Positions 1,293-28,753 of a stretch of 31,761 bases of DNA are shown piece by piece. The notes beneath the pieces were generated by a model. It saw only the letters and a list, made by a program, of their open reading frames with translations, ran no database searches and had not been told where the DNA came from. Numbering within the stretch: position 1 is the stretch's first letter; every line of letters begins with the position of its first letter. The position numbers were made by a program, and so were the translations under genes. Source of the DNA: a virus; IMG/VR virus record IMGVR_UViG_3300043777_000070, positions 1 through 31,761 of that record, one strand, 5' to 3'.

Positions 1293-3035
1293 TCAATTGA
1301 AACATGCCCCACAAGCCCCAGTCAGAGTATTGCTTATTCCGCCCTGCCCTAATGCCCCGATATTTGGTGCACTCCCGGTCAAAACTTGTGTGCCATCGGA
1401 CTTACTGTACAGCCAGATGTGATCCCCAACGGAACGAGAAAAACCGCTCGCCATGGTCAGCGTGTTCGTCGAGTAATTCACTGCGGAGATGCAAATGTGA
1501 TTGCTGACCGTTGTGACCGAGATGCAGTCGGCTTGAACTCCAGCAGAAGTTAACCCGAGGCCATCCTGAAAAAATCCGGCATCCGTGACGACTAGCGAGG
1601 TTCCTGATCCGGAATCGCCGGAGGCCACAGTGGTCAAATACGTACCAGCGTTGAGGGCCGCTGACCCGGAAGCAAGGTTGTAATTGCCACCCGAATAGTT
1701 CGCCAGCGGGTCACTGGTGTCTAAAATATTCGCGACGATCACCGGCGTATCGGCGGCGAACAGATAGGACGTTCCGCCGCGCTGCGTCTGAATTCCGCAC
1801 GGAGTCGCGGAGCAGTAGGCTAAATTCGCGCCCGCCGTGAAACCTGTGGCCGATCCTGACGGGACAGGGTAGGCGTACCATCCCCATGACTGCGGAACAG
1901 ACTGCGGATAATAGAACAGGTTGTTGATCTCGGCCCCGCCGGTGCCGGAATCCCGATAATCCGTCGAGGCGGGAGAGGCCAGCGCTCCATTGTTTGGATC
2001 AACCCAGGTGTTGTTGTAATACTTGACGTTCAAAAATCCGCTGGTTTGCGCGGCGGTCGCCGAACCGAAGTGGGAGAACACGTTGTAGCGCCCGATGACA
2101 TTGAAGCAACTTGTTCCGCAGCCGCTGGGATTGTCCGCAGCAGTCCACAGGCCTTTGCCGTCCACGCCTACAACGTTGGTTGCAACGTTGTTTTCCCATA
2201 ATTGGTACTGGACCACATAGTTTGCCGCTGTATTGCTGCGCTCCGCATAGAGCATATCCATGTGGCAGTTGCCGGACGCTGAACCGCATTCGGATTCGTA
2301 TATGTCATGGAAAAAGTTGTTTCGTGCGACTTCGTACTGGCCGTACATTTCAACCACGATGCCAAAGTGAGAAAAGTCGTTATTCTGCTCGAAAATATGG
2401 TTCCCACTGTTGCTAATCGCCACGCAGTTGTTGGGAGCAGATGAAGTCCCGCATCCATAACTAAAAGTGTTTCCTGTGATGTAGACGTAGCTCGATCCGT
2501 TCGTAGAACCCATTGTGACTTCTACGTCATTGCCCAAGCCGCATTGAGACATGACGTTGTTCGTGAGGTAAACATCCGTAGAGCCATCGACAATGGTGAC
2601 ACACCCCCCGCTCTGAGAGGGCTGGGTTATGCTGAATCCACATGAAGCTACCGCTGGCCTGCTCGTTGCGGTAGGAGTCGGGCAATTGCCGACCAACTTG
2701 GTGTGAGAGTTTAGCGTAAACCCGCCACTCACGTTTACCACGTCTGTGCCATTCACGGTTATGGTCTTGTAATTTCCAGCAGTTCCCGCTGGCACGGATG
2801 GAGATTCGTTATATGTCGCGGCATAGACGGTACAGGTATCGCCGGCAGCCATCGCCGTCGCGCAGGCTTGGATGGTGGTGTAGTTCTTGCCACTCGGCCC
2901 CACGGTGTAGTTCGTCGCCCACGCGGTTGGCGCAAGCGCTATAATGCCCCCGAGGAGAATGAGCCATGAAGCGCATCGCAGTTGTGGCAGTGATCGCATT
3001 GAGTTTCTTTGCTGGCCGATGGTCGAATCCGACAT
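1293..3035 (-). CDS. Exported right-handed beta-helix protein (tailspike/depolymerase-like)
   Basis: 580 aa. A signal peptide is visible: a basic N terminus, the core WLILLGGIIALAP and cleavage after AWA at about residue 40. From about residue 150 to 350 there are recurring Asn-rich turns (NNVMSQ, GNTFSY, NNFFHD, YNNTWV, INNLFY) spaced about 20-30 residues apart, as in right-handed parallel beta-helices of pectate-lyase-like proteins and phage tailspikes. It carries about 18 cysteines outside the signal region, unusual for a cytoplasmically assembled virion protein but expected for an exported one. The start may be 3035 (AGGGAAC upstream) or ATG 2999; both keep the signal peptide. No catalytic residues could be assigned, so the lyase role is inference. 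Confidence 0.8.
   Translation of the reverse strand: MSDSTIGQQRNSMRSLPQLRCASWLILLGGIIALAPTAWATNYTVGPSGKNYTTIQACATAMAAGDTCTVYAATYNESPSVPAGTAGNYKTITVNGTDVVNVSGGFTLNSHTKLVGNCPTPTATSRPAVASCGFSITQPSQSGGCVTIVDGSTDVYLTNNVMSQCGLGNDVEVTMGSTNGSSYVYITGNTFSYGCGTSSAPNNCVAISNSGNHIFEQNNDFSHFGIVVEMYGQYEVARNNFFHDIYESECGSASGNCHMDMLYAERSNTAANYVVQYQLWENNVATNVVGVDGKGLWTAADNPSGCGTSCFNVIGRYNVFSHFGSATAAQTSGFLNVKYYNNTWVDPNNGALASPASTDYRDSGTGGAEINNLFYYPQSVPQSWGWYAYPVPSGSATGFTAGANLAYCSATPCGIQTQRGGTSYLFAADTPVIVANILDTSDPLANYSGGNYNLASGSAALNAGTYLTTVASGDSGSGTSLVVTDAGFFQDGLGLTSAGVQADCISVTTVSNHICISAVNYSTNTLTMASGFSRSVGDHIWLYSKSDGTQVLTGSAPNIGALGQGGISNTLTGACGACFN
2940..2957 (+). promoter_or_regulatory. TATAAT box plus Shine-Dalgarno before the plus-strand small ORF
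   Basis: A perfect TATAAT lies at 2940-2945, and GAGGAG at 2952-2957 precedes the ATG at 2966. No good -35 is seen 16-18 bases upstream, and a start site 7 bases after the box would leave almost no leader before the Shine-Dalgarno. The box could be chance within the signal-peptide codons of the opposite gene. Confidence 0.25.
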
Positions 3036-3127
3036 TAAAGTTCCCTACCCCGACTGGCAATCCCCCTGTAAAACTGGATCGTATGTGCTACGGCGACTAT
3101 TACAAGACTCATCCCTGCCCAGATTAG
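2966..3127 (+). CDS. Candidate 53-aa secreted protein, antisense to its neighbours
   Basis: Plus-strand ORF starting MKRIAVVAVIALSFFAG, a compact signal peptide or anchor, followed by a Pro/Thr-rich segment and a C terminus containing DRMCYGDYYKTHPCPD. A strong Shine-Dalgarno GAGGAG (2952-2957) lies 8 bases before the ATG. The stop TAG (3125-3127) interlocks with the stop TAA of the minus-strand gene 3124-5181, a 4-base convergent overlap. Positions 3036-3123 have no convincing minus-strand gene, while 2966-3035 is shared with the start of the beta-helix gene. Composition is protein-like with two Cys. The function is unknown; a small secreted or lysis-related protein is possible. The main doubt is that every complete neighbour runs the other way. 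Confidence 0.45.
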   Translation: MKRIAVVAVIALSFFAGRWSNPTLKFPTPTGNPPVKLDRMCYGDYYKTHPCPD

Positions 3128-5181
3128 TTCGGCGCAAATGCCCCCCACGTCCCGAACCGATCCCAATACGGAGACCCCCACCATTGGCTGGAAGTGACGC
3201 CGCAGCTTCCGCCCGCGTTCTTGCCGAACTCAAACACCCCCGTGGCGGTCAGGTTCCAGAACGCCACGCCTGCATTGGTTAGAGCTGTGTTGGCGGGGCT
3301 TGAAAGTGTGACCGTGATCGGCCCTGAGCCTGAAGCTGCCGAAACTACCGTGCCTTGAATGATTCCCGTCGCGCCTACCGCGTACCCGGCGGTGATCGTG
3401 CCAACGCCGGGGGCCACGCAGCTCATCGAGGTCGAGCCGGAAGAGACGGTGCAGTTGGTTGCCACTTTTAGGTTCGCTGGAACGGTATAGAAATTAACCG
3501 TCGTGCCGCTTACCCCGCACGTCGTAGGCTGCGAGAGAGTGATGCTGGTCGTCCCTCCGCCAGCCTCGATCAGCGTAGGCCATGGGAGGCAATTTCCAGT
3601 CGGATCGAGGAGAAGTTGGCCATTCACCGTGGAAGTGCCAGACGATAGGGTCATGCTGGTCGCGCCCGAGGAGACGGTGCCTGTTGGAGACACGACGGGC
3701 GTTGGAAGCGTGCAGGTCGCATTCGCTCCGTTCGTGCAGGTGTGGTCGAGGTTTATCGTGCCCAGCAGACTCCATGTGGGCGACGTATGGCAGTTTGCCG
3801 TGCCGCACGAATAGATAAGCAGTTGGTGATATCTTTCATTCGCTCCGGCAATGTGCTCCTGAATGAAGTAGTCCTGATCCATGTTCATCGTCGGACTGGC
3901 CGAAGCCGGGGAACCTGCATTCTCGACCGTCTCCATCTTCATCGTGTAGGTAGTCCCGGTAGCCGCCACGTCCATCTGTCCGATAATCTGGCCGTCGATT
4001 CCCCCTCCTGCTATCGAGAAGTTGTCGCAGGCAACACTGTTGGTCGCTCCAGAGGATGCCATCCTGAAAAAGAAGCCTGCCCAGAAGGGCGCTCCTGTGC
4101 TTGACCAGTCATCCTGCACCGAGAAGAACCCGGTGGCCGTGCCGCCTGCGACCAGCATACTGACCCCGGCATCACCGAAGGTGTGCGCCACTTGATTGAC
4201 CATGATGTTTCGCGTGCCAGTCGCGTTCACGGTGCTGTCGTAGGTGGGAGCCGTGCCGTTAAGTGTCCAGTAAGGGGAAGCGGCATTGAAGTGAATGTTT
4301 GCCAGCGTGCTCCCTGCCGCGCCCAACAGGGTCGTGGACATGGTTCCAGTCGGCGCACTTCCCGGCGCACCGAAAGGCACGAACATCCCGGTCATCGAAC
4401 GGGTTCCCCCGGTCGTGCCCAACGGTAAAAGCGCAATTTGGGAATCTATTGTGGCGATGCTTGTGCTGTTCCCCGTGAACGGGCCATTGACCGCGGTAGC
4501 GGTGGTCTGGATTTGATACTCCGCGGCCTGCCGAACCTGTGAGGAGCCGACCAGTGTTAGCGTTCCAGAGGGCAGCCAGCTTCCACCACCGGAACTCGGC
4601 GCGGTGGCGGAGTTCCGCGACATCCATGCTGCGACCGCTTCATTGTTGCTTAACGGAGCAGTGGACGTGCCAGAGGTTGGATTCGTGACCGTGGCGCTGG
4701 TGGTTTGCTCCGCGCCGCCTGCGTCTAACACGTTCGACGCCGCTGTTCCTTTGAAGGCATAACAGAGTAGATTGGCCTGCGCGTTGGGGACGGCGCTGTA
4801 ATAAATCTGTGGAGTAATGGACCCGCTGGCCGAATTCTGCTTTACCGCGATGACGAGCCAGCTTAGGGTGCTATTGGGATGGGCCGCACCGTAAACGTTC
4901 TCATAGAACCCATTCACGGAATCCATGACCGCGCCGGTCTCGTTGTTTCCGCCACTCTGCCCATAAGACCCGCAAGCGATCGTGCTTCCTGCCGATAGAG
5001 TCATCGCGGAGGAGCAGGAAATGTAGTTGGTCGAACCGCTGCCGGAGCAGGGAGAACCGCCGTTGTCTAGGGTAATCGCTTGCACCCCTGACTGGACATT
5101 CATCACCCCCTGCAAGATGCCTTGTGCGTGGGCGAATCCGCAGAGCAGAATCAGAACGCTAGTTGTTCGTCCAAGTCCCAT
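3124..5181 (-). CDS. Exported tail-fibre/adhesin-like protein
   Basis: 685 aa. The N terminus MGLGRTTSVLILLCGFAHAQ is a clear signal peptide with cleavage after AHA. The rest is rich in Ser, Thr, Gly and Ala with many predicted beta strands. Residues about 270-460 contain aromatic and hydrophobic beta-strand stretches (FGDAGVSMLV, GFFSVQDDW, PFWAGFFFRMAS) that look like a jelly-roll or lectin-type fold. A low-complexity segment with repeated TLSSGT/SGTTSI-like pieces follows. No family is recognised with certainty. It overlaps the upstream fibre gene by 23 bases. Position among three similar giants suggests receptor binding or surface attachment; the signal peptide makes a secreted role equally possible. 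Confidence 0.75.
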   Translation of the reverse strand: MGLGRTTSVLILLCGFAHAQGILQGVMNVQSGVQAITLDNGGSPCSGSGSTNYISCSSAMTLSAGSTIACGSYGQSGGNNETGAVMDSVNGFYENVYGAAHPNSTLSWLVIAVKQNSASGSITPQIYYSAVPNAQANLLCYAFKGTAASNVLDAGGAEQTTSATVTNPTSGTSTAPLSNNEAVAAWMSRNSATAPSSGGGSWLPSGTLTLVGSSQVRQAAEYQIQTTATAVNGPFTGNSTSIATIDSQIALLPLGTTGGTRSMTGMFVPFGAPGSAPTGTMSTTLLGAAGSTLANIHFNAASPYWTLNGTAPTYDSTVNATGTRNIMVNQVAHTFGDAGVSMLVAGGTATGFFSVQDDWSSTGAPFWAGFFFRMASSGATNSVACDNFSIAGGGIDGQIIGQMDVAATGTTYTMKMETVENAGSPASASPTMNMDQDYFIQEHIAGANERYHQLLIYSCGTANCHTSPTWSLLGTINLDHTCTNGANATCTLPTPVVSPTGTVSSGATSMTLSSGTSTVNGQLLLDPTGNCLPWPTLIEAGGGTTSITLSQPTTCGVSGTTVNFYTVPANLKVATNCTVSSGSTSMSCVAPGVGTITAGYAVGATGIIQGTVVSAASGSGPITVTLSSPANTALTNAGVAFWNLTATGVFEFGKNAGGSCGVTSSQWWGSPYWDRFGTWGAFAPN

Positions 5182-8100
5182 AGCCCACGCCTGTCACCAT
5201 GTAGTGCGTCGTGTCCACACCTTCCATGCAGACAAAATCCCCTGCTGCACCGCCTGATACGAGCGTTCCGGTCGTCACCGTCCCATTGGCCCCTTTGTAA
5301 ACGATGTACACCGATGTCGTGCTCTTGACGGTGATGACTCCAGTCTGCCCTGAGTAGTTGCCAAAGCAATACTGCTTCCCCGCAACCGGGGAATCGAGCT
5401 GGAAAGTATAAGCGCCGCTGGCATCGTTCCAGTAATAACCCGTCAGCCCCAGCAAGGTGTATGGCGAGCCGCTGGTCTGAACTAAGTTGTAAACCGTGTT
5501 CGTGTAGGCGGTGGTAGCTACCTTAGTGGAATTGTCCCCCGCTGTTTGCGTGGTGGCCGTCGCTGATCCTAAGCAAGTTGCGGCAGTGCAGGTGATACTC
5601 GTATTGGCAGTGATCGTTGTTCCTGTGATCGCTGCCGGGGTAGTGCCGCCAATCGCACCGGGGCTAGGGAAGGAAGATGTTGAGCCGCCAAGAGACACCG
5701 TGGTGCCTGCGATGGTGATGGAGCCATTGACTGCGCCGTTCCCCACTACCTGCCACTGACTCGCCGTGGAGTTGTAGCACATCGGAATTGGTGTATTGGC
5801 AGGGATCGAATGCGGCGAGGTTGTCAGTGTCGTCGTGTAACCGCTGGAGCCGGGTACGGCCACGGAAACAGCGCTGGAGCTATCTACGTTGATCGTTAAT
5901 CCCGTGCCGCTGTTAGCTGTGGTGGTGCTATATAACATGCACAAATTGTTAACGGGGGCAAATGTTCCCGCCAGAGTGCAACTTTGCGCTGTTCCTGAAC
6001 CAGAAGTGTCATAACAAGGGTTGATTACGCCTTCAACCTCGATTGCGCCAATAGTTCCAGCGGTCCCTGAGCCGCTCGCGGTTCCTCCGACTCCAGGCTG
6101 AAGTATGACCGCTCCCCCGTTCCCGCCGGAATCGTTGCCAGCTTGCCCAGCCCCTCCGGGACCGCCTTCTATGATGGCAGCTCCGCCTCTGCCGCCTACG
6201 GTCGCCGTTGTGCCCGCTCCGGTTGCCGCTCCACCCGTACCGCCAATGATCTGAGGAGAACTGCCCGCTCCTCCGGTTGCTGTACCCGTGGAAGAGGTCG
6301 CGCCGCCCGTGCCCCCCTGTACTACAAATACATATCCCGCAGTAGCGCCAGTCCCTGCACTTGAGGCTGGAGCTGCTTGGGTAAGCGTAATGCCCGTGAC
6401 GGAAGTGTTTGGCAAGGTGAATGTGGCATCCGCTGTGGGATTCAACAAGCCTGTCGCTGTCTTATCGAAGGTCGGATTGATATAGCACAGCGAGCCGCAA
6501 GTCATTCCGGTGAGTGGAGTGTTGATTCTGACTTCCCAGATTCCACTCGCCCCTTGATTTGCAGTAAACCAGGCATTATTTGGAATGCTCGCAGTCGTCT
6601 GACTGGCCCCTTGAGTCCCTAGACCGCCAGAGACGGTAAACGTGTCCGTGGAAGTTGCATTCAGCGTCAGGCTTGAGCCTGTGAGGTTAAAGCCCGTGAA
6701 TACCAGATTGGAGCAGCCTGAACCCGTGGACAGAGGAATGATGACGGGATTTCCGCCCGTCGTGAAGCGAATGGCTTTGGTGCGGTCCTGCATGGTGGTT
6801 CCGCTATCGCATTCAATCGTGTAAGAGGCCGATGCCAGACTTACAGGAGAGGTCGCGCTATCTGACATTCCGGGAGACAACATCAGAGGCGGTCCTGCCG
6901 TGCCATCTGAAACCCAAGTCTGCCCAATGATTCCCGGCCCTCCACCTACGGCGGTATTCGCTGGATTGAAGTAAGCCGTCTGATATTGAGTGCCCGTCCC
7001 ACCTCCAACAGGGCAGGTAATCGAGAATGTAGACCCGGACAACGCTGAAGAAGTGCAGCCAGATACGAAGTTGAGAATCGGTGTGCCTGTCGCCGTGCCT
7101 TGGCTGGAACCATTATTGTCAACCGTCAGCCCTGCCAGCCCTCCACCGCAGGTTCCATCGACATAGTATGTGCCATTTCCGCAGAGGGTATGGCCGCTCG
7201 GAGCCGCGCCGCCCACCTGGAATCCGGTCGTGGCATTGAAGATTCCCGCCTTGATCGTTCCGACGTAGGTTCCGCCCGAGCCGCAGGAGTTCGCTGCATT
7301 CTGGGCCGTGCCGAACCAGCCATTGTTATAGAGATGGTCATACCGTGAAATCGTCGAATCGCCCGTGGCGCTGGTGATAGAGCAGCCGCGCGCGTTATCC
7401 ACGATCACGTTGGTCCAGCTGGCGGTGATGTTTTCGGTTTCAATCTGGGTTGCGGCATTGGAACCAATGTTGATGGCGGTCTGACCTGTTCCGGTTACAG
7501 CAAAGTCGTGGAGATGTGCGCCTGCCGCAACATTGACAGGCTGAGGACAATAAACCGGGCAGGCCGTCATGGGAACGCCGCCCGTGTTCTCGCCCACATC
7601 CACGAAGATGTTGGTGCTGGTGTTGTTTCCCTCGAAGTGAATCCCCGGCCCGAAGTCTCCGCCTTCCTCAAAGTCCACCGCTACTTCTCCTGCCCCAGAA
7701 GTGCAGCCATCGAAATTGACTGTCGTGTTTTCAATGGGGTGAAGCGAGCCGGGAATTCTTGTGATGATAGCCCGTGTTGCCGAAGTGCAACTTGAACTCG
7801 CATTCATCACCATCCGGTCATAGGGGCCGCTATTAACTGCGTTGATTCCCTCAATGTCCAGATAGGTGTCGATTACGTTGTTGATGACGACGTGTGTGAC
7901 GCCGGAGTTTTCCTGCTGCGAAAAGTTCGTGAATGCCGTGCATCCCGGCTCGTTATTGCAACTGATCGTTCCGCCTGTCCATGTGGCCGAAGCCCCGCCT
8001 GAGTCTCCACCATCGGCACCCATGGCCCCTAACCAGATCAACGGGGCTTTGATGACGTAGTTCACGGCACTGCTGTTCGCTGCGCCTGAATTAGCATTGG

Positions 8101-9589
8101 CAGTTGCGACGATCAGGTGGGTGTTGTCCGTGACCGCTATCACCATGCCGTAGGTGAGTTGTGCTTGACCGCCAACTGGCGCGTTAGACCCGCAAGCCGT
8201 CGCGCAAGTCGTCGTGCCATTACCCCCGCAGGCCGGCCCGTTCGCGCCGGGATAGGTCGTGCCTTGGCAGACACCGAATTCCTCTCCTACAAACACATTG
8301 CCAACAAACGAACACCCGGAGGAGCATGTAACCGTGAACTGATACTGCCCGGAGGAAATGGTTGATGGCGCACCCGTGGTGACCGTCCCTGCGGTATAGA
8401 TTCCCGGCCAAGTGCTTGAGGCGGTGATGGTTGCATTTTGTCCGAAGGCGCTGATTACTTCCACGTCCCAACACCGGGGCACGGCGATTGGAGTACTGGT
8501 TGTGATCTTCGTCCCGGCATTGATTCGGAATTTGCCGCAAGTCACCGGAGACGTAATGTTTGTCGTGCCATTTGATAAGATTCCAGCCCACGGGCTTGCC
8601 GTCCAGACTTGATTCCCAGTCACGGCCGAGTCGTCAATAATGGCATACCCGCCGCCTGAACCCGGAGTTCCCGGAACCGCTGCAATGGCATTGGCGATGC
8701 AGATATTGTCATTGGTTCCCGGTGTACACGTTCCTGCGCTGCCAGAATGAAAGCCTGTCTGCGAAACGTCGAGATAAAGCAGGGAAGTGGCATAGGTCGT
8801 AGACCCAGCAACGTTTGACAGAGGCTGGCCCGTATTGCCGCTGGGAGTTCCGCTTCCTCCAGAACAGGGTACATACGTTCCCGCCCCACTCAAGCAGTTT
8901 GAGGGAGAACCAGTGCCAGGTAGATAAGCACTAACATTCGGCCCGACAACCTGAAAATTGACATTTACGCCATTTGTAGGCGCTGCCGGAGTGGTATTGT
9001 TTAAGTTCGCTGGGGCCGTAGCAGCAGAATTGACCTGAACCGATTGAACTGCCGTGTAGCACGGATTTGGAGACAGCGCCGTGGTGAGTTGAAGGTATTG
9101 CCCGTTTGTCGGCGTGAAACCCGTGCAGAATTTGACGGTATCTAAACCCTTCACAGTCTGACTGGTCGGACTCCCTACCAGGTCACCCCCAGCCGAGAAG
9201 TTCCCGCTCCCACCAACACCCGGAGGGTATTGATCTGGCAAACATCCGCCATTCGCTAATGTTGGAACCGCTAAAGCCGAACCATAAAAGCAGTAAGTGT
9301 AAGGAGCTGCCCCCTGATTAATGTAGAAGAAGTAATTACCCAGCCCATTAGCTTGAACCGGAAACGACCCCGTATTGCAATTGACATCAGTCAGCGAGGC
9401 GCAGAGGGGGGCAAGCGGGGAACAGTAAGGGGCTGTAGTGGTGATCGTAGCTGGTTGAGCGCAAGCAGCGACATAAGCCCCAGCCGCGGGATTGTTATAG
9501 CGCGACGAGATCACGCCATCGACTCTGGAGTTTTGGGCAACGGCAATTGTACAAATGCTGAGGAAAAGCAGGGTGAGTAGTTTTCTCAT
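5159..9589 (-). CDS. Giant exported tail-fibre-like protein with glycine-rich domain
   Basis: 1476 aa. Residues 1-18 form a signal peptide (MRKLLTLLFLSICTIAVA, then Q). The following region (NSRVDGVISSRYNNPAAGAYV) looks like an extracellular beta domain with paired Cys. Residues about 550-830 carry beta-helix-like stretches with Asn turns. Residues about 1085-1180 form a glycine-rich block with repeated GGxGGA motifs, resembling polyglycine-type adhesin tips. Near residue 1310 are the tail-fibre motifs IGGTTPAAITGT and then TQTAGDNSTKVATTAY, both familiar from phage fibres. The C terminus is a compact beta region ending GYGTWTNN. The fibre motifs support a virion adhesin, while the signal peptide and Cys content argue for export. 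A 60-base gap precedes it, with no clear promoter. Confidence 0.85.
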   Translation of the reverse strand: MRKLLTLLFLSICTIAVAQNSRVDGVISSRYNNPAAGAYVAACAQPATITTTAPYCSPLAPLCASLTDVNCNTGSFPVQANGLGNYFFYINQGAAPYTYCFYGSALAVPTLANGGCLPDQYPPGVGGSGNFSAGGDLVGSPTSQTVKGLDTVKFCTGFTPTNGQYLQLTTALSPNPCYTAVQSVQVNSAATAPANLNNTTPAAPTNGVNVNFQVVGPNVSAYLPGTGSPSNCLSGAGTYVPCSGGSGTPSGNTGQPLSNVAGSTTYATSLLYLDVSQTGFHSGSAGTCTPGTNDNICIANAIAAVPGTPGSGGGYAIIDDSAVTGNQVWTASPWAGILSNGTTNITSPVTCGKFRINAGTKITTSTPIAVPRCWDVEVISAFGQNATITASSTWPGIYTAGTVTTGAPSTISSGQYQFTVTCSSGCSFVGNVFVGEEFGVCQGTTYPGANGPACGGNGTTTCATACGSNAPVGGQAQLTYGMVIAVTDNTHLIVATANANSGAANSSAVNYVIKAPLIWLGAMGADGGDSGGASATWTGGTISCNNEPGCTAFTNFSQQENSGVTHVVINNVIDTYLDIEGINAVNSGPYDRMVMNASSSCTSATRAIITRIPGSLHPIENTTVNFDGCTSGAGEVAVDFEEGGDFGPGIHFEGNNTSTNIFVDVGENTGGVPMTACPVYCPQPVNVAAGAHLHDFAVTGTGQTAINIGSNAATQIETENITASWTNVIVDNARGCSITSATGDSTISRYDHLYNNGWFGTAQNAANSCGSGGTYVGTIKAGIFNATTGFQVGGAAPSGHTLCGNGTYYVDGTCGGGLAGLTVDNNGSSQGTATGTPILNFVSGCTSSALSGSTFSITCPVGGGTGTQYQTAYFNPANTAVGGGPGIIGQTWVSDGTAGPPLMLSPGMSDSATSPVSLASASYTIECDSGTTMQDRTKAIRFTTGGNPVIIPLSTGSGCSNLVFTGFNLTGSSLTLNATSTDTFTVSGGLGTQGASQTTASIPNNAWFTANQGASGIWEVRINTPLTGMTCGSLCYINPTFDKTATGLLNPTADATFTLPNTSVTGITLTQAAPASSAGTGATAGYVFVVQGGTGGATSSTGTATGGAGSSPQIIGGTGGAATGAGTTATVGGRGGAAIIEGGPGGAGQAGNDSGGNGGAVILQPGVGGTASGSGTAGTIGAIEVEGVINPCYDTSGSGTAQSCTLAGTFAPVNNLCMLYSTTTANSGTGLTINVDSSSAVSVAVPGSSGYTTTLTTSPHSIPANTPIPMCYNSTASQWQVVGNGAVNGSITIAGTTVSLGGSTSSFPSPGAIGGTTPAAITGTTITANTSITCTAATCLGSATATTQTAGDNSTKVATTAYTNTVYNLVQTSGSPYTLLGLTGYYWNDASGAYTFQLDSPVAGKQYCFGNYSGQTGVITVKSTTSVYIVYKGANGTVTTGTLVSGGAAGDFVCMEGVDTTHYMVTGVGYGTWTNN

Positions 9590-9649: not shown

Positions 9650-10549
9650 TCAGTCTCCCGCCTTCTTCGCTTTCAGCGCCCGAATCCGATCAAGCTCCGC
9701 TTGCCACTGAGGAGTTAAATCGTTGGTTACTGGCGGTTGATCCGATCTCCCCGAAGCCCCAGTAGGGCGAACCGCGCGCGTCAGATCGCCTTTGGTTACC
9801 CCCGTGGAACTGCCTGCGATTGCACGCCTGCGAGCTTCAGATTCCGCTCTTTGGCCTTGAGTTTCAAGCCATTGGGACTGTTCTTGTTGAATGGCCCGGT
9901 CATCCATCCTGTCGGCACGAGTTCCCGGTGAAGGAATTCCTGCATAGCCTTCGGTTTTCTGACGAATCTGGTTGGTGGACGGGACATAGTTAGTCTCTGG
10001 TGTCATAACAGGAGGCTCACTGGCAGAGGTTTGCGGAATCGGGGCTTCTTCAGGCGGAGTTGCGACTTCGGGTGTCCCGCCGCGAAGGAAGGGCAGAAAC
10101 TCAGAGTACGGCGGGATAAATTTGCCAACGTAAGGTATCTTCCGCGCTTCCCCGATTGCCATGCTTGTAAGGAAAGGATGCCGTGCTGCCACACGCGCAA
10201 CAGGGGGGGCTACGGCGCTGATAACTGGGGATGCTGCCCCAATTGCCGCCGCGCCCGCGATACCCTCTCCTAGCTCATCTGGAGCGTGAACGATAGACTG
10301 TGGGACTTTACTTCCCGCCCCTTGCGTATCAGTCGGTCCACCTTCCAGAGTTCCAAGATAAGAACCCTTCATCTCTGGCTGGGTGCTGGGCGCTCCCGGA
10401 ATAGGCGTAGCAGGTCGCGCCATGTCCTCGTACTGCGGGTGTTTGGCGAGGACTGCTTTTGTAAGTGCAGCGTCGTCCATGTCGTCATAGACGCCGGGGT
10501 ACTTACCTCGGATTGCGCCTACGAGCGGATTCAGCGCCGGAGTGCTCAT
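9650..10549 (-). CDS. Internal-virion/ejection-type protein with KYPGVYDD motif
   Basis: 299 aa. The N terminus contains IRGKYPGVYDDMDDAALTK followed by AKHPQY, a short helical motif often seen at the start of phage internal virion or tail-tip proteins. Residues about 90-135 are Ala/Gly/Val-rich and could be a membrane-active segment (IAGAAAIGAASPVISAVAPP). The C-terminal half is Pro-, Gln- and Arg-rich and likely disordered, ending in a basic helix (DRIRALKAKKAGD). The gene is joined to its upstream neighbour by ATGA and is the last of three genes between the nozzle-like gene and the fibres that look like ejection proteins. The role is inferred from composition and position. Confidence 0.65.
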   Translation of the reverse strand: MSTPALNPLVGAIRGKYPGVYDDMDDAALTKAVLAKHPQYEDMARPATPIPGAPSTQPEMKGSYLGTLEGGPTDTQGAGSKVPQSIVHAPDELGEGIAGAAAIGAASPVISAVAPPVARVAARHPFLTSMAIGEARKIPYVGKFIPPYSEFLPFLRGGTPEVATPPEEAPIPQTSASEPPVMTPETNYVPSTNQIRQKTEGYAGIPSPGTRADRMDDRAIQQEQSQWLETQGQRAESEARRRAIAGSSTGVTKGDLTRAVRPTGASGRSDQPPVTNDLTPQWQAELDRIRALKAKKAGD

Positions 10550-11778
10550 TTAGGCCTGATTCCCAGAGGATCAGTGGCTCCGCCCGGAGCCTGTGGCGCT
10601 CCGGCCGACTGCCCACTCATCGCGCCCATGTTCGCCTGCGTCCACTGGTCAATATGCTGCAACACTGCGACAAGATTAGTGGCAGTCTGTTTCGGAGCGT
10701 TGATGGCGTTGTCGAACTCTTCGCGCAAGTTTTCAGGCAGCCGCCCACGGGCGTGCATGAGAGCCACAGCGGAAGACATCATTAGCAAATCGGTACGCAG
10801 CCCGGCGAATTTAGGATTGTCCAAACCGATCTTACCTTGCATGAACTCATTCCAGCGACCTTCGAGTGGACCGAGTTCGTCTTTCATCTGTTGAATTTCG
10901 GAGATTACTGTGGGCATCTGCTCGTGGACTAAAGCGGCCTGCGCTCCAACATTCCGCATCTGCATCGTGGGCTTGGGCGGGATCACACCTCCCGGAGCTG
11001 CAGCATTCGCGCCCTTAATGTCCTCCACTGAGACATAATGCCGGGATTTGGGGTCGATCCATCCCTTTGTGGCCCCTGTCGCATCATTTACCGGAAGGTA
11101 GTTGCCAGCTTCCGTCTTGCCGCGTTCGGCAATGGCCCCACGTGCTTTTTCTCGATTCGCTGGCGTGTCTTCGAGTTTATTGGCCTGCAAGTAATCCTGA
11201 ACGTCCTCATCCTTGGCATTTTCCTTCGTTGGCGCTCCGCCTGCCTTGATGTCATATCGCTTCGTCTCGGGATTCCATTGCATCACCCCTTGATCGGTGG
11301 TGATTGTTTTGCCAGATTCCTCTTCCTTTGGCTGCGGATGGCGCAATGCCTCCGCTTGTGCCCTGTCCCGTTCCGCCGCCGACTCATGCTCCTCTGTGCT
11401 AGCTTCTTTTTCACCTTCGTTGATCGGCGCTTCGTACTCTTCGGTCGCAGTCTTGTATTTTTGTTCGGCCTGCTGCTCCGGGCGCTGATTGAAATAGGCG
11501 TTAAAGGGGCCGCCAACCAACCCAGCGATAGTGTGGCCGACTTTGGCCCACCCTTTCGGCTCGGCTGGAGCATATTGCGCCCACGTGGGACGTGCTGGGA
11601 CACTCGGCGGCGGGGCGACATGCGATTGCAGGCCGCGTGTTTCCAAATCGCCCACGGAGCCTGCTAGAGCTGGAGCGGCGGGAGAAGGGGCGGCGGGCAC
11701 AGCCGGAGCATAGCCATGGCGCAGCCGCTCTTCCTCGTCCTCGTCGTACATTACGGGAGCGTAATCCGTGCCTACCAT
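10546..11778 (-). CDS. Putative internal virion protein
   Basis: 410 aa. Residues 1-75 are acidic then Pro/Ala-rich and probably disordered. A short Gly-rich hydrophobic segment lies near residues 80-95 (VGHTIAGLVGGPFNAYF). Residues about 105-230 are strongly charged and helical. The C-terminal third (from about LGPLEGRWNEFM through LRTDLLMMSSAVAL to NLVAVLQHIDQW) looks like a conserved helical domain that I associate with internal or structural proteins of soil and gut podovirus-like phages, without a firm family name. It starts with a TAATG junction and ends with ATGA, so it is translationally coupled on both sides. Function as an ejection protein is inference. Confidence 0.65.
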   Translation of the reverse strand: MVGTDYAPVMYDEDEEERLRHGYAPAVPAAPSPAAPALAGSVGDLETRGLQSHVAPPPSVPARPTWAQYAPAEPKGWAKVGHTIAGLVGGPFNAYFNQRPEQQAEQKYKTATEEYEAPINEGEKEASTEEHESAAERDRAQAEALRHPQPKEEESGKTITTDQGVMQWNPETKRYDIKAGGAPTKENAKDEDVQDYLQANKLEDTPANREKARGAIAERGKTEAGNYLPVNDATGATKGWIDPKSRHYVSVEDIKGANAAAPGGVIPPKPTMQMRNVGAQAALVHEQMPTVISEIQQMKDELGPLEGRWNEFMQGKIGLDNPKFAGLRTDLLMMSSAVALMHARGRLPENLREEFDNAINAPKQTATNLVAVLQHIDQWTQANMGAMSGQSAGAPQAPGGATDPLGIRPK

Positions 11779-20172: not shown

Positions 20173-21426
20173 TTAGTAGCCGCCGACTGGTAGAGCAAGT
20201 CCATCGAAGAAGGCGCCGTATCTGGGTTGATCCATGAAAACGTTGAACACGGTGTCGAAATACTGGAGGTATCCAGCTTCCAGACCGCCCGACGCTCCAT
20301 AGACCTGATACGTGGTTTGGCCGCCCAATTCAAACATGTCGATCTCTTTGGTAATGCCCCGGCCCCAGTGCTTCAACAAGATGATGTCGATGCGCTGGAT
20401 TGTGGCATGGATCGAGGTTTTGATTGGAATGCCGCCAAAGGTCTTGGGGGCATGGCGCTTCAGCGGATCTTCGGAGGAATCGCCGGAGACTTGATTGAGA
20501 ATGATCGAACTGATGGTCAGCCCTGCATTCTCCCAAGCCGCCTCCTGGTCTACGTTCATGTAGGCCAGCATCGGTTCCTCGAAGTTCACTCCCAATACCC
20601 TGCGGAGCTTGTTTTCGCCCAAGCGCCGGAGGGCAGGAGTAATGGTCGCTCCGCCCGCGGCAACGTGAGGCGTCTTCAAGGCTTCGGGATAAGTCGAGCG
20701 CGCCAGGTTGTTCCACGACCCTGACTGCGAATCAACGTGGTTATAAAGCAATCCCTCAAGAGAGACAGGATTTGCTCCGCCGGCACCCTGCGAAATGTTG
20801 ATAACCAGAGCATCCGTTACCGAAGTCCCTGGAGGCAGAGCGTTGAAAGTGACGGTCTTGAGCAGCGGATCAACCGTTGTCACCGTCGCCAATCCGCGCG
20901 ATGCCGAAGCAAGGCCAGTGGGATAGAACTGAATGTCCTGGTTGAAGTAGAACAGGTTCGGGTTGGTGACCGTGCAAACCGTTCCACTGATGGCCGAGAT
21001 GGTATCGAGCTGTCCCGTCCCGTTGGTGTTGTAGACGCAATCGAGGGCGCGTTTGAACATCTTCAGCGCTTCTTCGACTTCCCTGACCGCTACATCTTCC
21101 ACAGCCTTATCATTCCCCTTGCTCGCATACTCGGCGAGTTTGGAGATTTCAAAGGCAAAGCGGAAATGCAGGGTTGAGAGCGTGCCTACATCCCAGGTGG
21201 ACCCGGAACCACGACCCATGTCATCGAAGTCGGCAGTTCCTTGGCTGAATTTCCCGCCCGGCCGGATGAGCTGAGGCAGGCGGATGTTGCGGGTGGATGC
21301 GTCGATGGCGTCACCCTTTTTGTCGATCATATCGAGCAGAATTACTTCCTGCTCGTAGGCGGTGGGCACCGTCTTACGCACTTTCTCCAGTTGCAATGCA
21401 ACGGAATTTAGATTTGTTGCTGGCAT
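20173..21426 (-). CDS. Major capsid protein (HK97-fold type)
   Basis: 417 aa, a normal length for an HK97-fold capsid protein. Residues about 25-75 give an N-arm-like region (EVILLDMIDKKGDAIDASTR, then RLPQLIRPGGKFSQG). Next is a long helix (FEISKLAEYASKGNDKAVED), then a beta-rich stretch with an Ig-like insertion near residues 145-225 (GTVCTVTNPNLFYFN, LATVTTVDPLLKTVTF). The C-terminal third (LAYMNVDQEAAWENAG, GGIPIKTSIHATIQRIDIIL) matches A-domain-type strands. CGGAG precedes the ATG. It directly follows the scaffold-like gene and is followed by a hairpin. The call rests on order, size and pattern; no HK97-type crosslink residues were assigned. Confidence 0.85.
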   Translation of the reverse strand: MPATNLNSVALQLEKVRKTVPTAYEQEVILLDMIDKKGDAIDASTRNIRLPQLIRPGGKFSQGTADFDDMGRGSGSTWDVGTLSTLHFRFAFEISKLAEYASKGNDKAVEDVAVREVEEALKMFKRALDCVYNTNGTGQLDTISAISGTVCTVTNPNLFYFNQDIQFYPTGLASASRGLATVTTVDPLLKTVTFNALPPGTSVTDALVINISQGAGGANPVSLEGLLYNHVDSQSGSWNNLARSTYPEALKTPHVAAGGATITPALRRLGENKLRRVLGVNFEEPMLAYMNVDQEAAWENAGLTISSIILNQVSGDSSEDPLKRHAPKTFGGIPIKTSIHATIQRIDIILLKHWGRGITKEIDMFELGGQTTYQVYGASGGLEAGYLQYFDTVFNVFMDQPRYGAFFDGLALPVGGY

Positions 21427-22927: not shown

Positions 22928-25367
22928 TTGGGGCTCCTACGCCTGCGCCAGGGGCGGATGGTACGATCTTTGGCGCTTTGCTGGCCTTATCAAGAGCCAG
23001 TTTCTGCAAAAAGTCTTGAGCTGTTACGTTGATGCCGAGTTTGGCGAGAACCTGCGCCTGCGCTTCCGGGGGCATATCCTTGAATGCGACATTAAGCGAT
23101 TCAGATAGCGGCTTCTCGTCGGGTGGTGGTGCGGGAATTGCCGCCTCGTGCTGTGCAAGATGCTCCACCACCGCCTGAAAGCCCATGGGATTGTTGCGCT
23201 TCAGCTTCTGCCCACGAAGCGAATTCAGCCACCACTTGCAACAAGCCACATGAACCGGATGGTTCTGATACTTCTCGACTGACACTTCAGGGGCAATTCC
23301 AGCCAGCAACTGATCGCCTTGCGGAATTGTCGTCATGTCGGCAATCTCTCGAAGCTGGAACTCCCAATCTTCTACTCCTGGCACCTTTAGATCAGGAATG
23401 CCCGTCAACCGGGCAAACAGCTTCCGGTTTGACATGTCCTGCAACAATGCAGCGCCTTGCGGAGAATCCCCAAGCTGCATGGCCGTCGCTCTCTGCTGGT
23501 TCCAGAGTTCAGGGAAGTTTTCATCCCCTTCAGGATAGGCCGTTGCTTCGCCTTCGAGAGCCGTGATGTCGATAGACTCATTCTCAAAGTCCCCAGAATC
23601 CCCAAGAACAGGGATTTTCACGGTATCGCCGCAATGGGCCTCATAATCCCGGCAGGCTAATGTCATGATGTCGGCATGAGCCTGCTTCATGTTGACGTAA
23701 AACACGCCAGCGCGGCCCATTGCCTGATCCCGCCGCATAGACTCCTGACCTAAGGTCTCCGGCTGCTGATCCCCAGACCCAGTAAGGGCTTGATACGCCC
23801 CAGAAACTTCTTCGGCGATCGGCCCAAACAGGTCCATCATGTGCTTCTGCATGTCTGGGGAAACTGAATCGGCTCGTGTCTGCATGATGCGATTGTTGAT
23901 GATGTCTCCCGGCTTTAGGGCAACTTCCACCTCCAATCCCGGAGCGGCACGTTGGTCATCATCCGCCTCCGCTGAGAACGTGTCGGAGGCTCGGTATGTG
24001 ATCGGAATGCCATACTCGTAGGTTTCAGCCGAGATATTCGAGAAAGTGTTAAACCGATCTTGCACGGAAATCATCGACGTGCCGATGGCAGCCCGGTGCT
24101 GCCCTCTTCCCGGCATGACGTGGAATCCCACAATGCAATCGTCCATCGATTGCTTTTCGGACTTGTAGAACGTGTTCCCGGCAAACTGAATATGCACGCC
24201 ACGCGGGAAAATCTCTTTTGCCTTCTCCCTGATCCCGGTATCTTTCATCATCCAGTAGGAGGAGGGCCGGAACCAAACGTCGGCATGGGTTACAAGCGTG
24301 GACTGCTTGGCTCCGGTCTGGGTGGGTAGTTTGGCATTCTCGGCGACGGCGAGACGCGCGTTGCGTTCAAATGATTCATCCGGCCCGAAATTCATTCCTG
24401 GCCGAATCTTATCAGCAATCTCTTCTGTGGCAGCAGAAGCTCTCAGGATCGAATAGTGGATTTCCCGTTCGATGGCGAAATAATGCCATTCACTCTGGGA
24501 ATTCGTGTGCTGAGGACGTTTGCAGTTCAGCGCTCCAAAGACTTCGATAATCTGCCGTCCGCGCGGTACGTCGGTTTCGTCGCCGTCCACCGGAATCTGG
24601 ATAGGCTCCTCTTCGCTAACGTTGTCCTCGGTGAGTTGGGCTCCGCATTCCGGGCATGGGACTGGCGGACTCGCTTCGGCTGCGGGAGCGGACCAGCCAC
24701 ACTGAGGACACGTGATCGTTGAATCCACGTCAGATTCCTGAGTGTCGAGGCCAGGAACCTTATCAAAGCCCATTTTCTCGCCATCGGCGACATAGTGCGT
24801 CCAGAGGGCAATAAAACCGCCAGTGTAGGCATGATAAGTCTCTTGTTGCAGCATCAGTTGCGGCGGGTTCCAGCGTTCAATCAGCTCGGTGATCTTGGTG
24901 CGGCCTTCTGCTGTGTCTGTATCTTTCGGGTCGTCGGCATCCCTTGGGAAAAAACGGATTCTTGGCGGAGCACCAGCAACAGCGCCAATGATAGTAAGCC
25001 CCTTGGACTGGTAGATATTGGTGACAAACTCAAACCGCGGCATTTCGTCAAAGTCGAGGTCGCCAAGCGGACTAACTCCGACTCCCGGCGCAGGCTTCCA
25101 CGTTTCATCCCGATCCGACCAGTACCAGTATTGGCGTCCCGGCCAGTAGTTTTCCGCCTGTTTGACATCCTTAACCTCAATCAGCCTCGGATAGCGGTCC
25201 TCCGCCGTGCATTCGAGATACAGAGACAGAAACGCCCGCTGCAAATCTTCATGCTGGGCGAGCGGATCATCCCATTCCTGCTCATCGGGCTTGTCGCGCG
25301 CGTCATCGACTGAATCAGCCGGCGCGGTCGATGCGTTATCCGTGTTCTTGTAGAGTTCGTCAGCCAC
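22920..25367 (-). CDS. Portal protein with zinc-ribbon insertion
   Basis: 815 aa from GTG (VADELYKNTDNAS). This start was chosen because GGAAGA lies just upstream and it overlaps the previous stop by 8 bases, like its neighbours; the frame stays open to 25418. The size fits P22-type portals. A CPQC...CPEC zinc ribbon lies at about residues 218-240. A region near 440-560 (RFNTFSNISAETYEYGIPIT, SPDMQKHMMDLFGPIAEEVS, QALTGSGDQQPETLG, then MRRDQAMGRAGVFYVNM) is portal-like, with the helical segment before TGSG. The C-terminal 60 residues include FKDMPPEAQAQVLAKLGIN and a Pro/Ala-rich tail. It would form the dodecameric DNA gate. The zinc ribbon is inferred from Cys spacing. Confidence 0.85.
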   Translation of the reverse strand: MADELYKNTDNASTAPADSVDDARDKPDEQEWDDPLAQHEDLQRAFLSLYLECTAEDRYPRLIEVKDVKQAENYWPGRQYWYWSDRDETWKPAPGVGVSPLGDLDFDEMPRFEFVTNIYQSKGLTIIGAVAGAPPRIRFFPRDADDPKDTDTAEGRTKITELIERWNPPQLMLQQETYHAYTGGFIALWTHYVADGEKMGFDKVPGLDTQESDVDSTITCPQCGWSAPAAEASPPVPCPECGAQLTEDNVSEEEPIQIPVDGDETDVPRGRQIIEVFGALNCKRPQHTNSQSEWHYFAIEREIHYSILRASAATEEIADKIRPGMNFGPDESFERNARLAVAENAKLPTQTGAKQSTLVTHADVWFRPSSYWMMKDTGIREKAKEIFPRGVHIQFAGNTFYKSEKQSMDDCIVGFHVMPGRGQHRAAIGTSMISVQDRFNTFSNISAETYEYGIPITYRASDTFSAEADDDQRAAPGLEVEVALKPGDIINNRIMQTRADSVSPDMQKHMMDLFGPIAEEVSGAYQALTGSGDQQPETLGQESMRRDQAMGRAGVFYVNMKQAHADIMTLACRDYEAHCGDTVKIPVLGDSGDFENESIDITALEGEATAYPEGDENFPELWNQQRATAMQLGDSPQGAALLQDMSNRKLFARLTGIPDLKVPGVEDWEFQLREIADMTTIPQGDQLLAGIAPEVSVEKYQNHPVHVACCKWWLNSLRGQKLKRNNPMGFQAVVEHLAQHEAAIPAPPPDEKPLSESLNVAFKDMPPEAQAQVLAKLGINVTAQDFLQKLALDKASKAPKIVPSAPGAGVGAPNA

Positions 25368-25569
25368 GTTTCTTCCGTCGCGGTACAGCGTGCTTGTGCA
25401 AATCGCCGCCCTTGCCAAATCGCAGCCCTAAATTCCCCGCCGAGCGCAAAGAGGGATTGGAGGAATGCGAGGCCTCAACTTCGGCCTCATGGACGGATAC
25501 TCCCTTCCTTTCAGCGAGGCGGTGCATTCTGCCGGGATGCTTGATCGCAGCCTTGATGAACTTAGCCAT
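25360..25569 (-). CDS. Short basic protein ending HAVPRRKKRG
   Basis: 69 aa from MAKFIKAAIKHPGRMHRLAER. GGAGAGG precedes the ATG, which overlaps the upstream stop by 8 bases; the longer frame to 25629 was rejected. The N terminus (IKHPGRMHRLAERKGVSV then HEAEVEAS) is a small helical basic motif that I have seen in short phage proteins near portals. The C terminus (LHKHAVPRRKKRG) is highly basic and closely resembles the end of the 55-aa gene at 25752-25919. Nucleic-acid binding is possible but unproven. It couples to the portal by another 8-base overlap. Confidence 0.7.
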   Translation of the reverse strand: MAKFIKAAIKHPGRMHRLAERKGVSVHEAEVEASHSSNPSLRSAGNLGLRFGKGGDLHKHAVPRRKKRG

Positions 25570-25786
25570 GCTGCCTCTCCGGGATGATCTGGCCCTGATT
25601 CTCGATGACTTTCGCTGGCGCGTGGTCAACCTGGCGCATGTAGCGGTCGGTCATGATCTTCGCCGCTTCGTGCATCTGGGCTGGCCTCGCAAACATCCCA
25701 ATCCTGCGCGCGGCAACCTTCCACATGCGCTTTTGCATCTCGTGCCGAAACTTACGACGGCCTTTTTTTTCTTCGAGGGATGGCAT
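25562..25786 (-). CDS. 74-aa basic helical protein
   Basis: Begins MPSLEEKKGRRKFRHEMQKRM and is rich in Lys, Arg, Met and Gln, with a mid segment AARRIGMFARPAQMHEAAKI and an end IENQGQIIPERQHG. It overlaps the upstream 55-aa gene by 35 bases in the +1 frame, and the overlap contains an A8 run. The start has only a weak purine-rich upstream region (GAGAAGAAGAAAC), so translation may depend on the upstream gene. No family is recognised; basic composition suggests contact with DNA or RNA. Confidence 0.6.
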   Translation of the reverse strand: MPSLEEKKGRRKFRHEMQKRMWKVAARRIGMFARPAQMHEAAKIMTDRYMRQVDHAPAKVIENQGQIIPERQHG

Positions 25787-25919
25787 GTTTCTTCTTCTCA
25801 GGTAAAGAGCCTTTTGGGGTCGCAGCGTCCCATTCGGAAACGGCTGATTTGCCGCCGAGCGCTTTTAAGCCACTCGCGCTGTGACCCCAGCGGGCCTGTG
25901 CCTTCGACAACCAAGGCAT
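25752..25919 (-). CDS. 55-aa basic protein, MPWLSKAQARWGHS type
   Basis: Starts at ATG 25919, which shares TAATG with the previous gene; the longer frame to 26096 lies inside that gene and was rejected. MPWLSKAQARWGHSASGLKA followed by LGGKSAVSEWDAAT is a pattern I recognise from short phage proteins near portal genes, without a known role. The C terminus (PEKKKHAIPRRKKRPS) is very basic and is nearly the same as the tail of the 69-aa gene at 25360-25569. An A8 run (25763-25770) lies in its last codons. Confidence 0.7.
   Translation of the reverse strand: MPWLSKAQARWGHSASGLKALGGKSAVSEWDAATPKGSLPEKKKHAIPRRKKRPS
25763..25770 (-). other. A8 slippery run in a two-frame overlap
   Basis: Eight A residues on the minus strand, followed by GG, lie in the stretch shared by the 55-aa and 74-aa genes. 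The downstream frame is +1 relative to the upstream one, so loss of a single A during transcription would fuse them. This is a possibility only; ordinary initiation at 25786 also explains the layout. Confidence 0.35.
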
Positions 25920-26785
25920 TACTGCACCGACTGAACCTGTGAATATCCCCAAGCCTTGATATGCACCACGCCCGCCCCTGAAGCAGCGTTCGCAGTGATA
26001 ATCAAAGGCGTCAGGGCATACGACGTACCTGTAGCCGACTCCGTGGGCGCTACGTTCTTCGCCGAGCAGTTCAGGCCCGCCGTAAGAGACGCGCACGAGG
26101 TATAAAACAGCGTGGTCGAGCCGGCGATGCCGAGCGAATACGTCGCAGTCGTGGTAATCGTGGTCGTGACGTAAGTCGATGCCCCTGTTCCTACCGCATT
26201 AAGCGGAATCTGGCAGTTTGTCGTGGTTGTCGTCACGCCACCCGTATTCATGGTGACGCGGCCACAATCTGCCTCGAAGTTGACTTGCCCTCCGCCGTTC
26301 AACCCGGCATCGGTAATCGCCTCTTCAATTCCACCATCGCCTGAGACAACCAGTGCGCTCTGCCCGTGCGTATTGGCAAAGTTGCCCGTGATCGTCGCGC
26401 AGGCGTTGCCGCTGCCGCCCACTCCTAGATTCCCGGCAGGACAAGTCGAAACCGTAACGCCCGTAGGAGTCACAACTTCGGCGTTGGCGTCCTGCACGTA
26501 GATCGGAGTGCTGGTATTGAACACGGTTGAAAGTGGCAGGTTGGTGCCATCCTTCAGGCCAACGGTCTGCCCTGCAGCCGCCACGATGATCGACGTACCA
26601 GCTCCGGTCGTGGTGTTGCCGGAGATGATCGTTGCCTGCCAGGTCGAATAGGCAGGCGCGAAGAAGATGCTCCCAAACCGATGATAAGGCGGGGAGTTCT
26701 GTGAAAGAACGTTGCCATACTGTTGACCGAACGCGGCGAGACTCAAGGCGAGAATAACCGCGAAACTGCCTAATACTTTCCTCAT
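25919..26785 (-). CDS. Exported beta-rich protein between terminase and portal
   Basis: 288 aa from MRKVLGSFAVILALSLAAFG. AGGAGA lies 8 bases before this ATG; the frame is open to 26908, but those extra residues lack a Shine-Dalgarno and hide the signal peptide. Residues 1-20 are a signal peptide ending AFG then QQ. The rest is Thr/Ser/Gly/Asn-rich and all-beta (for example GTSIIVAAAGQTVGL, ALVVSGDGGIEEAI, TTTITTTATYSLGIAG), resembling the exported adhesin-like genes at the left of the block. It contains six cysteines, mostly in the C-terminal two thirds. A surface or virion adhesin is plausible, but placement between terminase and portal is unusual for one. Confidence 0.75.
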   Translation of the reverse strand: MRKVLGSFAVILALSLAAFGQQYGNVLSQNSPPYHRFGSIFFAPAYSTWQATIISGNTTTGAGTSIIVAAAGQTVGLKDGTNLPLSTVFNTSTPIYVQDANAEVVTPTGVTVSTCPAGNLGVGGSGNACATITGNFANTHGQSALVVSGDGGIEEAITDAGLNGGGQVNFEADCGRVTMNTGGVTTTTTNCQIPLNAVGTGASTYVTTTITTTATYSLGIAGSTTLFYTSCASLTAGLNCSAKNVAPTESATGTSYALTPLIITANAASGAGVVHIKAWGYSQVQSVQ

Positions 26786-28279: not shown

Positions 28280-28753
28280 CTATCCTAACCTGCTGATCTT
28301 TGCGCTGATGTTTACTGCGTTCGTCAAGCTAGCCAGATACAGCCTCAAGAACCTTCCACCTGTAGGTGATAAATCAACTCGCGCCACGAAAGTTGTTCCA
28401 TTTACGGCAGTTATCGTGTAGGCAGCATTGGTCGGCGTGATGTAGAAGCCGTCTGCATCCGTGTCTGCTTCCTGAACCTGGAGGCTGAAAGCCCCCGGAG
28501 CTGCGGAGAATCTGATCTCAACCGATACCGAAGGCGCTGGGTCGCCATGAAACGGTTGAATATCCACAGCAATCGACGCAGCCGGAGCGACAACCGTTTC
28601 CTGTGCGTAATTGCTATCATTTACAGGCAGTTGCGTGGCCGTCGCTGCCAACTTGCCCCACACATAGACTTGATCGCCTTTTGAAAGCTGGATTGGCGAG
28701 GCGTTAGAGTTTACCTGCGTGAATGAGCCTGTTACCCCTGGGTACGCTGGCAT
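28280..28753 (-). CDS. Beta-rich structural protein after the terminase
   Basis: 157 aa, all-beta in appearance: MPAYPGVTGSFTQVNSNASP, QVYVWGKLAATATQLP, SIAVDIQPFHGDPAPSVSVE, AAYTITAVNGTTFVARVDL. The ATG shares TAATG with the terminase stop, so the two are coupled. There is no signal peptide, no Cys and no long helix. The size and fold suggest a jelly-roll or Ig-like domain such as a head decoration or fibre-base protein. No family is recognised. Confidence 0.65.
   Translation of the reverse strand: MPAYPGVTGSFTQVNSNASPIQLSKGDQVYVWGKLAATATQLPVNDSNYAQETVVAPAASIAVDIQPFHGDPAPSVSVEIRFSAAPGAFSLQVQEADTDADGFYITPTNAAYTITAVNGTTFVARVDLSPTGGRFLRLYLASLTNAVNISAKISRLG

Follow-up and report, generated by a model that had tools for sequence, protein, structure and literature searches.

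A candidate 53-residue membrane protein gene on the opposite strand of a phage tail-region gene block

The locus and its setting

The window analysed here is the whole of an IMG/VR virus record of 31,761 bases, a phage fragment whose late genes lie on the minus strand. Related terminases are found in 38 contigs, and nine loci with relatives lie in bacterial genome contigs: Acidobacteria/Acidobacteriota MAGs account for four of them, Veillonella genomes for three, and a Betaproteobacteria MAG and a Devosia MAG for one each. Given these taxa, an acidobacterial host is plausible. The features that matter for the locus, in the coordinates of the window, are as follows.

28753-30297, minus strand: terminase large subunit of the late block (PHROG 979, E 5.8e-11)
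20173-21426, minus strand: major-head-like protein of the late block (PHROG 14242, E 2e-5)
3124-5181, minus strand: 685-aa exported protein, with stop codon TAA at 3124-3126
1293-3035, minus strand: 580-aa exported protein with signal peptide MRSLPQLRCASWLILLGGIIALAPTAWA (by eye), in 5'-5' overlap with the candidate
3036-3123: 88-nt gap between these last two genes, occupied by the C-terminal half of the candidate and by the sequence upstream of the 580-aa gene
2966-3127, plus strand: candidate small gene, 53 aa, MKRIAVVAVIALSFFAGRWSNPTLKFPTPTGNPPVKLDRMCYGDYYKTHPCPD, with ATG at 2966 and TAG at 3125-3127
2952-2957, plus strand: Shine-Dalgarno (SD)-like GAGGAG, 8 nt before the ATG
2940-2945, plus strand: TATAAT, 20 nt upstream, the single copy in the window (4.5 expected)
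2944-3282, plus strand: second ORF across the gap, 112 aa
3035-3184, minus strand: rival ORF across the gap, 49 aa, ending in TAATG at the start of the 580-aa gene

The original prediction placed a 53-aa plus-strand ORF at 2966-3127, and its coordinates, frame and sequence are all right. The product begins with MKRIAVVAVIALSFFAGRW and is laid out as MKR, a hydrophobic helix at about residues 4-17, and then some 35 residues that include Cys41 and Cys51. It had been described as a secreted protein with a signal-peptide start; the hydrophobic start is there, but by eye it has no canonical cleavage site, and residues 11-20 (ALSFFAGRWS) contain neither an AxA-like cleavage site nor a lipobox. As both a clear cleavage site and a lipobox are missing, the N-terminus, judged from its residues, is more likely a signal anchor than the start of a cleaved, secreted form, and the protein is better called membrane-anchored. 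A single-sequence AlphaFold2 model of the 53 residues is weak (mean pLDDT 59.5), with helices at 3-18 and 34-41.

The 580-aa gene has two possible starts, at 3035, with GGGGTAGGGA upstream, or at 2999, directly before the signal peptide. The candidate therefore overlaps it by 70 or 34 nt respectively, which places 43% (2966-3035) or 21% of the candidate antisense to the start of this gene; with the overlaps on both sides counted, 23-46% of the candidate is antisense to coding sequence. Divergent 5'-5' overlap of 34-70 nt is a rare arrangement, and we count it against the candidate gene: in E. coli, according to PMC4161906, divergent pairs make up 2 of 663 overlapping gene pairs. The claim that the candidate fills the only gap is correct as regards the gap, although two other ORFs, of 112 and 49 aa, also span it. 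Similarly, the TAG of the candidate does interlock with the TAA of the 685-aa gene in a 4-nt convergent overlap, but this is uninformative, because a TAA or TAG stop that follows C or T always makes a stop on the antisense strand; the same interlock is found at 12 of the 25 minus-strand genes.

Long plus-strand ORFs of 202-209 aa also lie inside or across minus-strand genes at 10286-10894, 11038-11667 and 25331-25942. They are probably by-products of codon composition, and none of the three ranks in the top 15 on the plus strand by coding score.

Start signals and chance expectation

The spacing of GAGGAG before the ATG, described as strong in the original prediction, stands up to counting: this is the sole GAGGAG-N8-ATG in the window, where 0.37 would be expected. 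The putative start of translation combines AGGAG, a spacing of 8 nt and an ATG. GAGGAG is, at the same time, the antisense of CTC CTC (Leu-Leu), and TATAAT that of ATT ATA (Ile-Ile), both among the signal-peptide codons of the 580-aa gene. In the main rival to the gene reading, the ORF is a product of chance: the gap would be an ordinary 88-nt spacer between two tail-region genes, containing the ribosome-binding region of the 580-aa gene, while the SD, the -10 and the hydrophobic start would be accidents of the strand opposite the first codons of this gene. We put this rival a little short of an even chance. The frequency of the interlock speaks in its favour, as does the fact that GAGGAG and TATAAT are the antisense of codons in the neighbour.

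How often such an ORF would arise by chance can be estimated from simulated junctions, in which the proteins of the neighbours were kept, their codons redrawn and the gap shuffled (20,000 junctions for each choice of the 580-aa start). ATG ORFs of at least 40 aa with at least 40% of their length in the gap occur in 4,702 and 6,307 of the 20,000 simulations (24-32%), so that the length of the candidate is ordinary, as expected of a chance ORF. The joint occurrence of an ATG, an SD of five bases and a signal-like start (charged, then hydrophobic) in such an ORF is, in contrast, rare, being found in 13 of 20,000 junctions if the 580-aa gene starts at 3035, or in 19 of 20,000 if it starts at 2999, which argues against chance, with the caveat that the tests were picked after the features had been seen, in a window selected by a reader seeking such features, a selection that itself favours the chance ORF. 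In fully randomised windows, there are 0.0175 SD plus signal-like ORFs per window with at least 40% of their length in gaps, and none of 400 had one at the junction; anywhere in the sequence, 12% of randomised windows have at least one, mostly inside genes.

The window itself has 66 plus-strand ATG start/stop pairs of at least 50 aa. Among the 100 such pairs of at least 40 aa, an SD of five or more bases precedes two, five have a signal-like start, and the candidate alone has both. When all 426 pairs with ATG, GTG or TTG are considered, two GTG starts of the ORF ending at 28421 also combine an SD with a signal-like start. Overall, the gene reading is supported in part: the SD and the hydrophobic start are real and jointly unlikely by chance at this junction, but there is nothing unusual in the interlock or in the length of the ORF.

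The perfect TATAAT noted upstream is present, but as a promoter it is weak, having by eye no -35 element. Inferred from the sequence, an mRNA from this site would begin at about 2952, at the SD itself, with a leader of about 14 nt; we count the absent -35 and the short leader against the candidate gene. No promoter or terminator sites are listed at the candidate locus. Taken together, GAGGAG, TATAAT and the interlock are weaker cues than the first reading implied.

The plus-strand feature might instead be an antisense RNA: a transcript from the TATAAT at 2940 would span the ribosome-binding region of the 580-aa gene together with its start and could dampen its translation. The site of the only TATAAT is compatible with this, as is the overlap with the 580-aa start, whether at 3035 or 2999, but besides the absence of a -35, the plus strand of 2940-3150 folds less stably than its shuffles (z 2.3; the minus-strand gap has z 0.5), there is no Rfam match at gathering thresholds, and an RNA would leave the SD and the codon periodicity described below unexplained. 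We therefore consider an antisense RNA very improbable. Stable folds, RNA families and tRNAs were looked for, and none was found.

Codon usage in the gap

In coding score over the gap, whose bases are free of the constraint of any called gene, the candidate frame is the best of six, at +0.037 to +0.039 nats/base, and the sole frame with a positive phage-codon score, the others standing at -0.011 or lower. Over 3035-3124, 42 of 2,680 open dinucleotide shuffles score as well (about 1.6%), and 59 of 3,000 shuffles do so when the best open frame of six is taken. Codon periodicity at this level is a point against the chance ORF. The whole candidate ORF scores +0.004 nats/base. Of 162 stretches of 54 codons taken from real genes, 89% score higher; of 153 plus-strand ORFs, counting the candidate, 8.5% reach or exceed its score. 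Under a pooled order-4 coding model the candidate obtains -1.6 nats, a negative value that favours chance, and our home-made gene caller leaves it out. The same caller also omits the small minus-strand ORFs at 518-841, 849-1016 and 1013-1312.

The late-strand ORF of 49 aa at 3035-3184 might instead be the gene that fills the gap. It is open across it and coupled to the 580-aa gene by the stop/start overlap TAATG; however, it has no SD (by eye), its coding score is -0.020 as a whole and -0.037 in the gap, the pooled model gives it -4.3 nats, and its local matches are at chance level only. This, too, we regard as highly unlikely.

Codons 14-24 of the 580-aa gene, which lie antisense to the hydrophobic start of the candidate, end in A in 6 of 9 cases against 1.9 expected (p 0.0035), and only 3 of 841 windows are as extreme. 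Such a bias is what dual coding would need. It is not independent evidence, however, as it restates the hydrophobic start as read on the opposite strand. Moreover, A-ending codons are enriched at gene starts generally (67 versus 46.4 expected over 25 genes), and the start of the gene at 20173-21426 is equally extreme.

Searches for homologues

No significant homologue of the 53 residues was found in any collection searched, including the 38 terminase-related contigs, none of which gave a match at E of 1 or below; this is again as a chance ORF would predict. Pfam, PHROGs, NCBIfam and PDB sequence searches gave no match. Peptide-pattern searches of viral and genome contig collections returned 24 and 275 stretches respectively, with no confirmed relative, and scans of the viral contigs for CYGDYYK and YYKTHPC returned three and five stretches, all in other, unrelated frames. 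With tblastn at E up to 10, 14 phage records (best E 0.5) and three plasmid records (best E 0.6) were retrieved. The best phage match, in Erwinia phage Kaldavass, has the start MKRIAVVA and little else in common with the candidate and belongs to a longer hypothetical protein, and was set aside as chance; a Paraburkholderia plasmid match was rejected for overlapping a gene annotated on the other strand.

In local tblastn against the fetched stretches of relatives, the best E is 0.017, over 30 residues of contig L072. Among the six relative-bearing genomes other than Veillonella, three have matches at E of 1 or below, the best at 0.085. In 396 genomes from the phylum of genome G042, three have matches at E of 0.01 or below (best 0.0036), about the chance expectation, and the best of these, L115, is an intergenic frame without an ATG.

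The candidate frame is absent from every related locus found. As the tail region differs between relatives, however, the missing homologues are weak evidence of absence. For the 580-aa and 685-aa neighbours themselves, peptide patterns gave no confirmed relatives, and among 297 genomes of the G042 phylum, three have partial matches to the 580-aa protein (best E 8e-10, 27% identity). Of the tail relatives found, contig L048 is the closest, with 72% over residues 7-133 of the 1,476-aa protein. There, different genes replace both neighbours, the sole resemblance being a match of 21% to the 685-aa protein, weak and located in another gene, and consequently no orthologous gap is available for comparison.

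Small and opposite-strand ORFs in related phages

Several related contigs have small ORFs with features in common with the candidate.

L047 7031-7153, minus strand: 40-aa ORF with GAGGA and a hydrophobic start, in 4-nt convergent overlap with a tail-region gene
L047 7286-7492, plus (late) strand: 68-aa small membrane or lipoprotein-like ORF near tail and lysis genes
L047 8018-8203, plus strand: small lipoprotein-like or membrane ORF in the lysis region
L052 8822-8956, minus (late) strand: 44-aa small membrane or lipoprotein-like ORF near tail and lysis genes

The 40-, 68- and 44-aa ORFs resemble the candidate in their hydrophobic N-terminus, short exported tail and genome neighbourhood, and the 40-aa ORF also in lying on the opposite strand with a convergent 4-nt overlap with a tail-region gene. 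They differ from it in sequence, with no similarity in local tblastn, and the 44- and 68-aa ORFs lie on the late strand. The ORFs of 44-68 aa around the lysis region of these relatives are unrelated, and tiny exported proteins may have a hot spot there.

Across 48 sequences totalling 734 kb, made up of the window and 47 pieces that partly overlap, there are four opposite-strand gap ORFs with an SD and a signal-like start. The mean over 40 randomisations is 0.3, and no randomisation reaches four. We do not rely on this excess: one of the four is the candidate itself, that of L052 lies, on our reading, on the late strand beside a doubtful gene call, and the 100-aa ORF of L098 overlaps a called gene.

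Two relatives, L048 (15468-15857, minus) and L050 (10259-10648, minus), have a well-conserved gene of 129 aa with CRRC and CPxC motifs, close to where the late block ends and on the strand opposite to it. Judging by this gene, convergent opposite-strand genes seem to occur in this phage group.

A possible lineage-restricted small gene

On the evidence above, we judge it an even call that 2966-3127 is a real, lineage-restricted small gene of this phage. Its expression, topology and role we infer from the anatomy and statistics of the ORF. A weak promoter at the TATAAT at 2940 would drive plus-strand transcription, counter to the late block, and translation from the GAGGAG and ATG would yield the 53-aa protein. 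The N-terminal helix, a signal anchor, would remain embedded in the inner membrane, and some 35 residues on the outer side would face the periplasm, where Cys41 and Cys51 could form a disulfide. The likeliest role would be that of a cargo ("moron"-like) gene in the variable tail-protein region, the role that best suits a gene without relatives lying on the plus strand amid tail genes of the minus strand; that it might be an envelope modifier or a superinfection-exclusion peptide is a guess from position and topology.

Phage morons carry their own promoter and terminator and are expressed from the prophage, and moron and superinfection-exclusion membrane proteins form separate transcription units. 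The candidate can be likened to such proteins, for example P22 SieA (PMC10883804), as a putative membrane protein that would form a separate unit. It differs from proteins of the SieA type in being just 53 aa long, and none of the phage records found resembles it significantly.

Antisense-overlapping small ORFs found so far in bacteria are typically young, according to the review PMC7457138. As in the cases described there, the putative gene is short and antisense to a known gene, and it is without homologues found; unlike them, only 23-46% of it is antisense to coding sequence. It could be a newly born gene, in which an antisense frame was extended from the signal-peptide codons of the tail-region protein into the adjacent spacer; we consider this unlikely. 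If that is what happened, both strands of some 34-70 nt would specify the beginnings of two exported proteins, in divergent orientation.

If real, the candidate is an orphan of a familiar kind, that of small phage membrane proteins, and not a new system. Its one notable feature is then the unusual divergent overlap, with the starts of two exported proteins sharing DNA on opposite strands, and it would serve as a test case for the study of orphan antisense genes among phages of uncultured bacteria. If it is not real, the locus illustrates how signal-peptide codons, read from the other strand, can come to resemble an SD, a -10 and a hydrophobic start.

A conserved late-block protein

One further protein of the late block has a predicted signal peptide (by eye) that ends at a conserved AQN-x-R-x-DG start. 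In the three tested, it gave no Pfam match at E 0.1, and the motif is conserved in all six contigs where the protein is recognised.

Window 5159-9589, minus strand: AQN-x-R-x-DG protein
L048 3007-7656, L050 2928-4889 and L047 5100-7034: AQN-x-R-x-DG protein
L051 3585-5915 and L052 11167-12555 (minus strand): AQN-x-R-x-DG protein, further contigs
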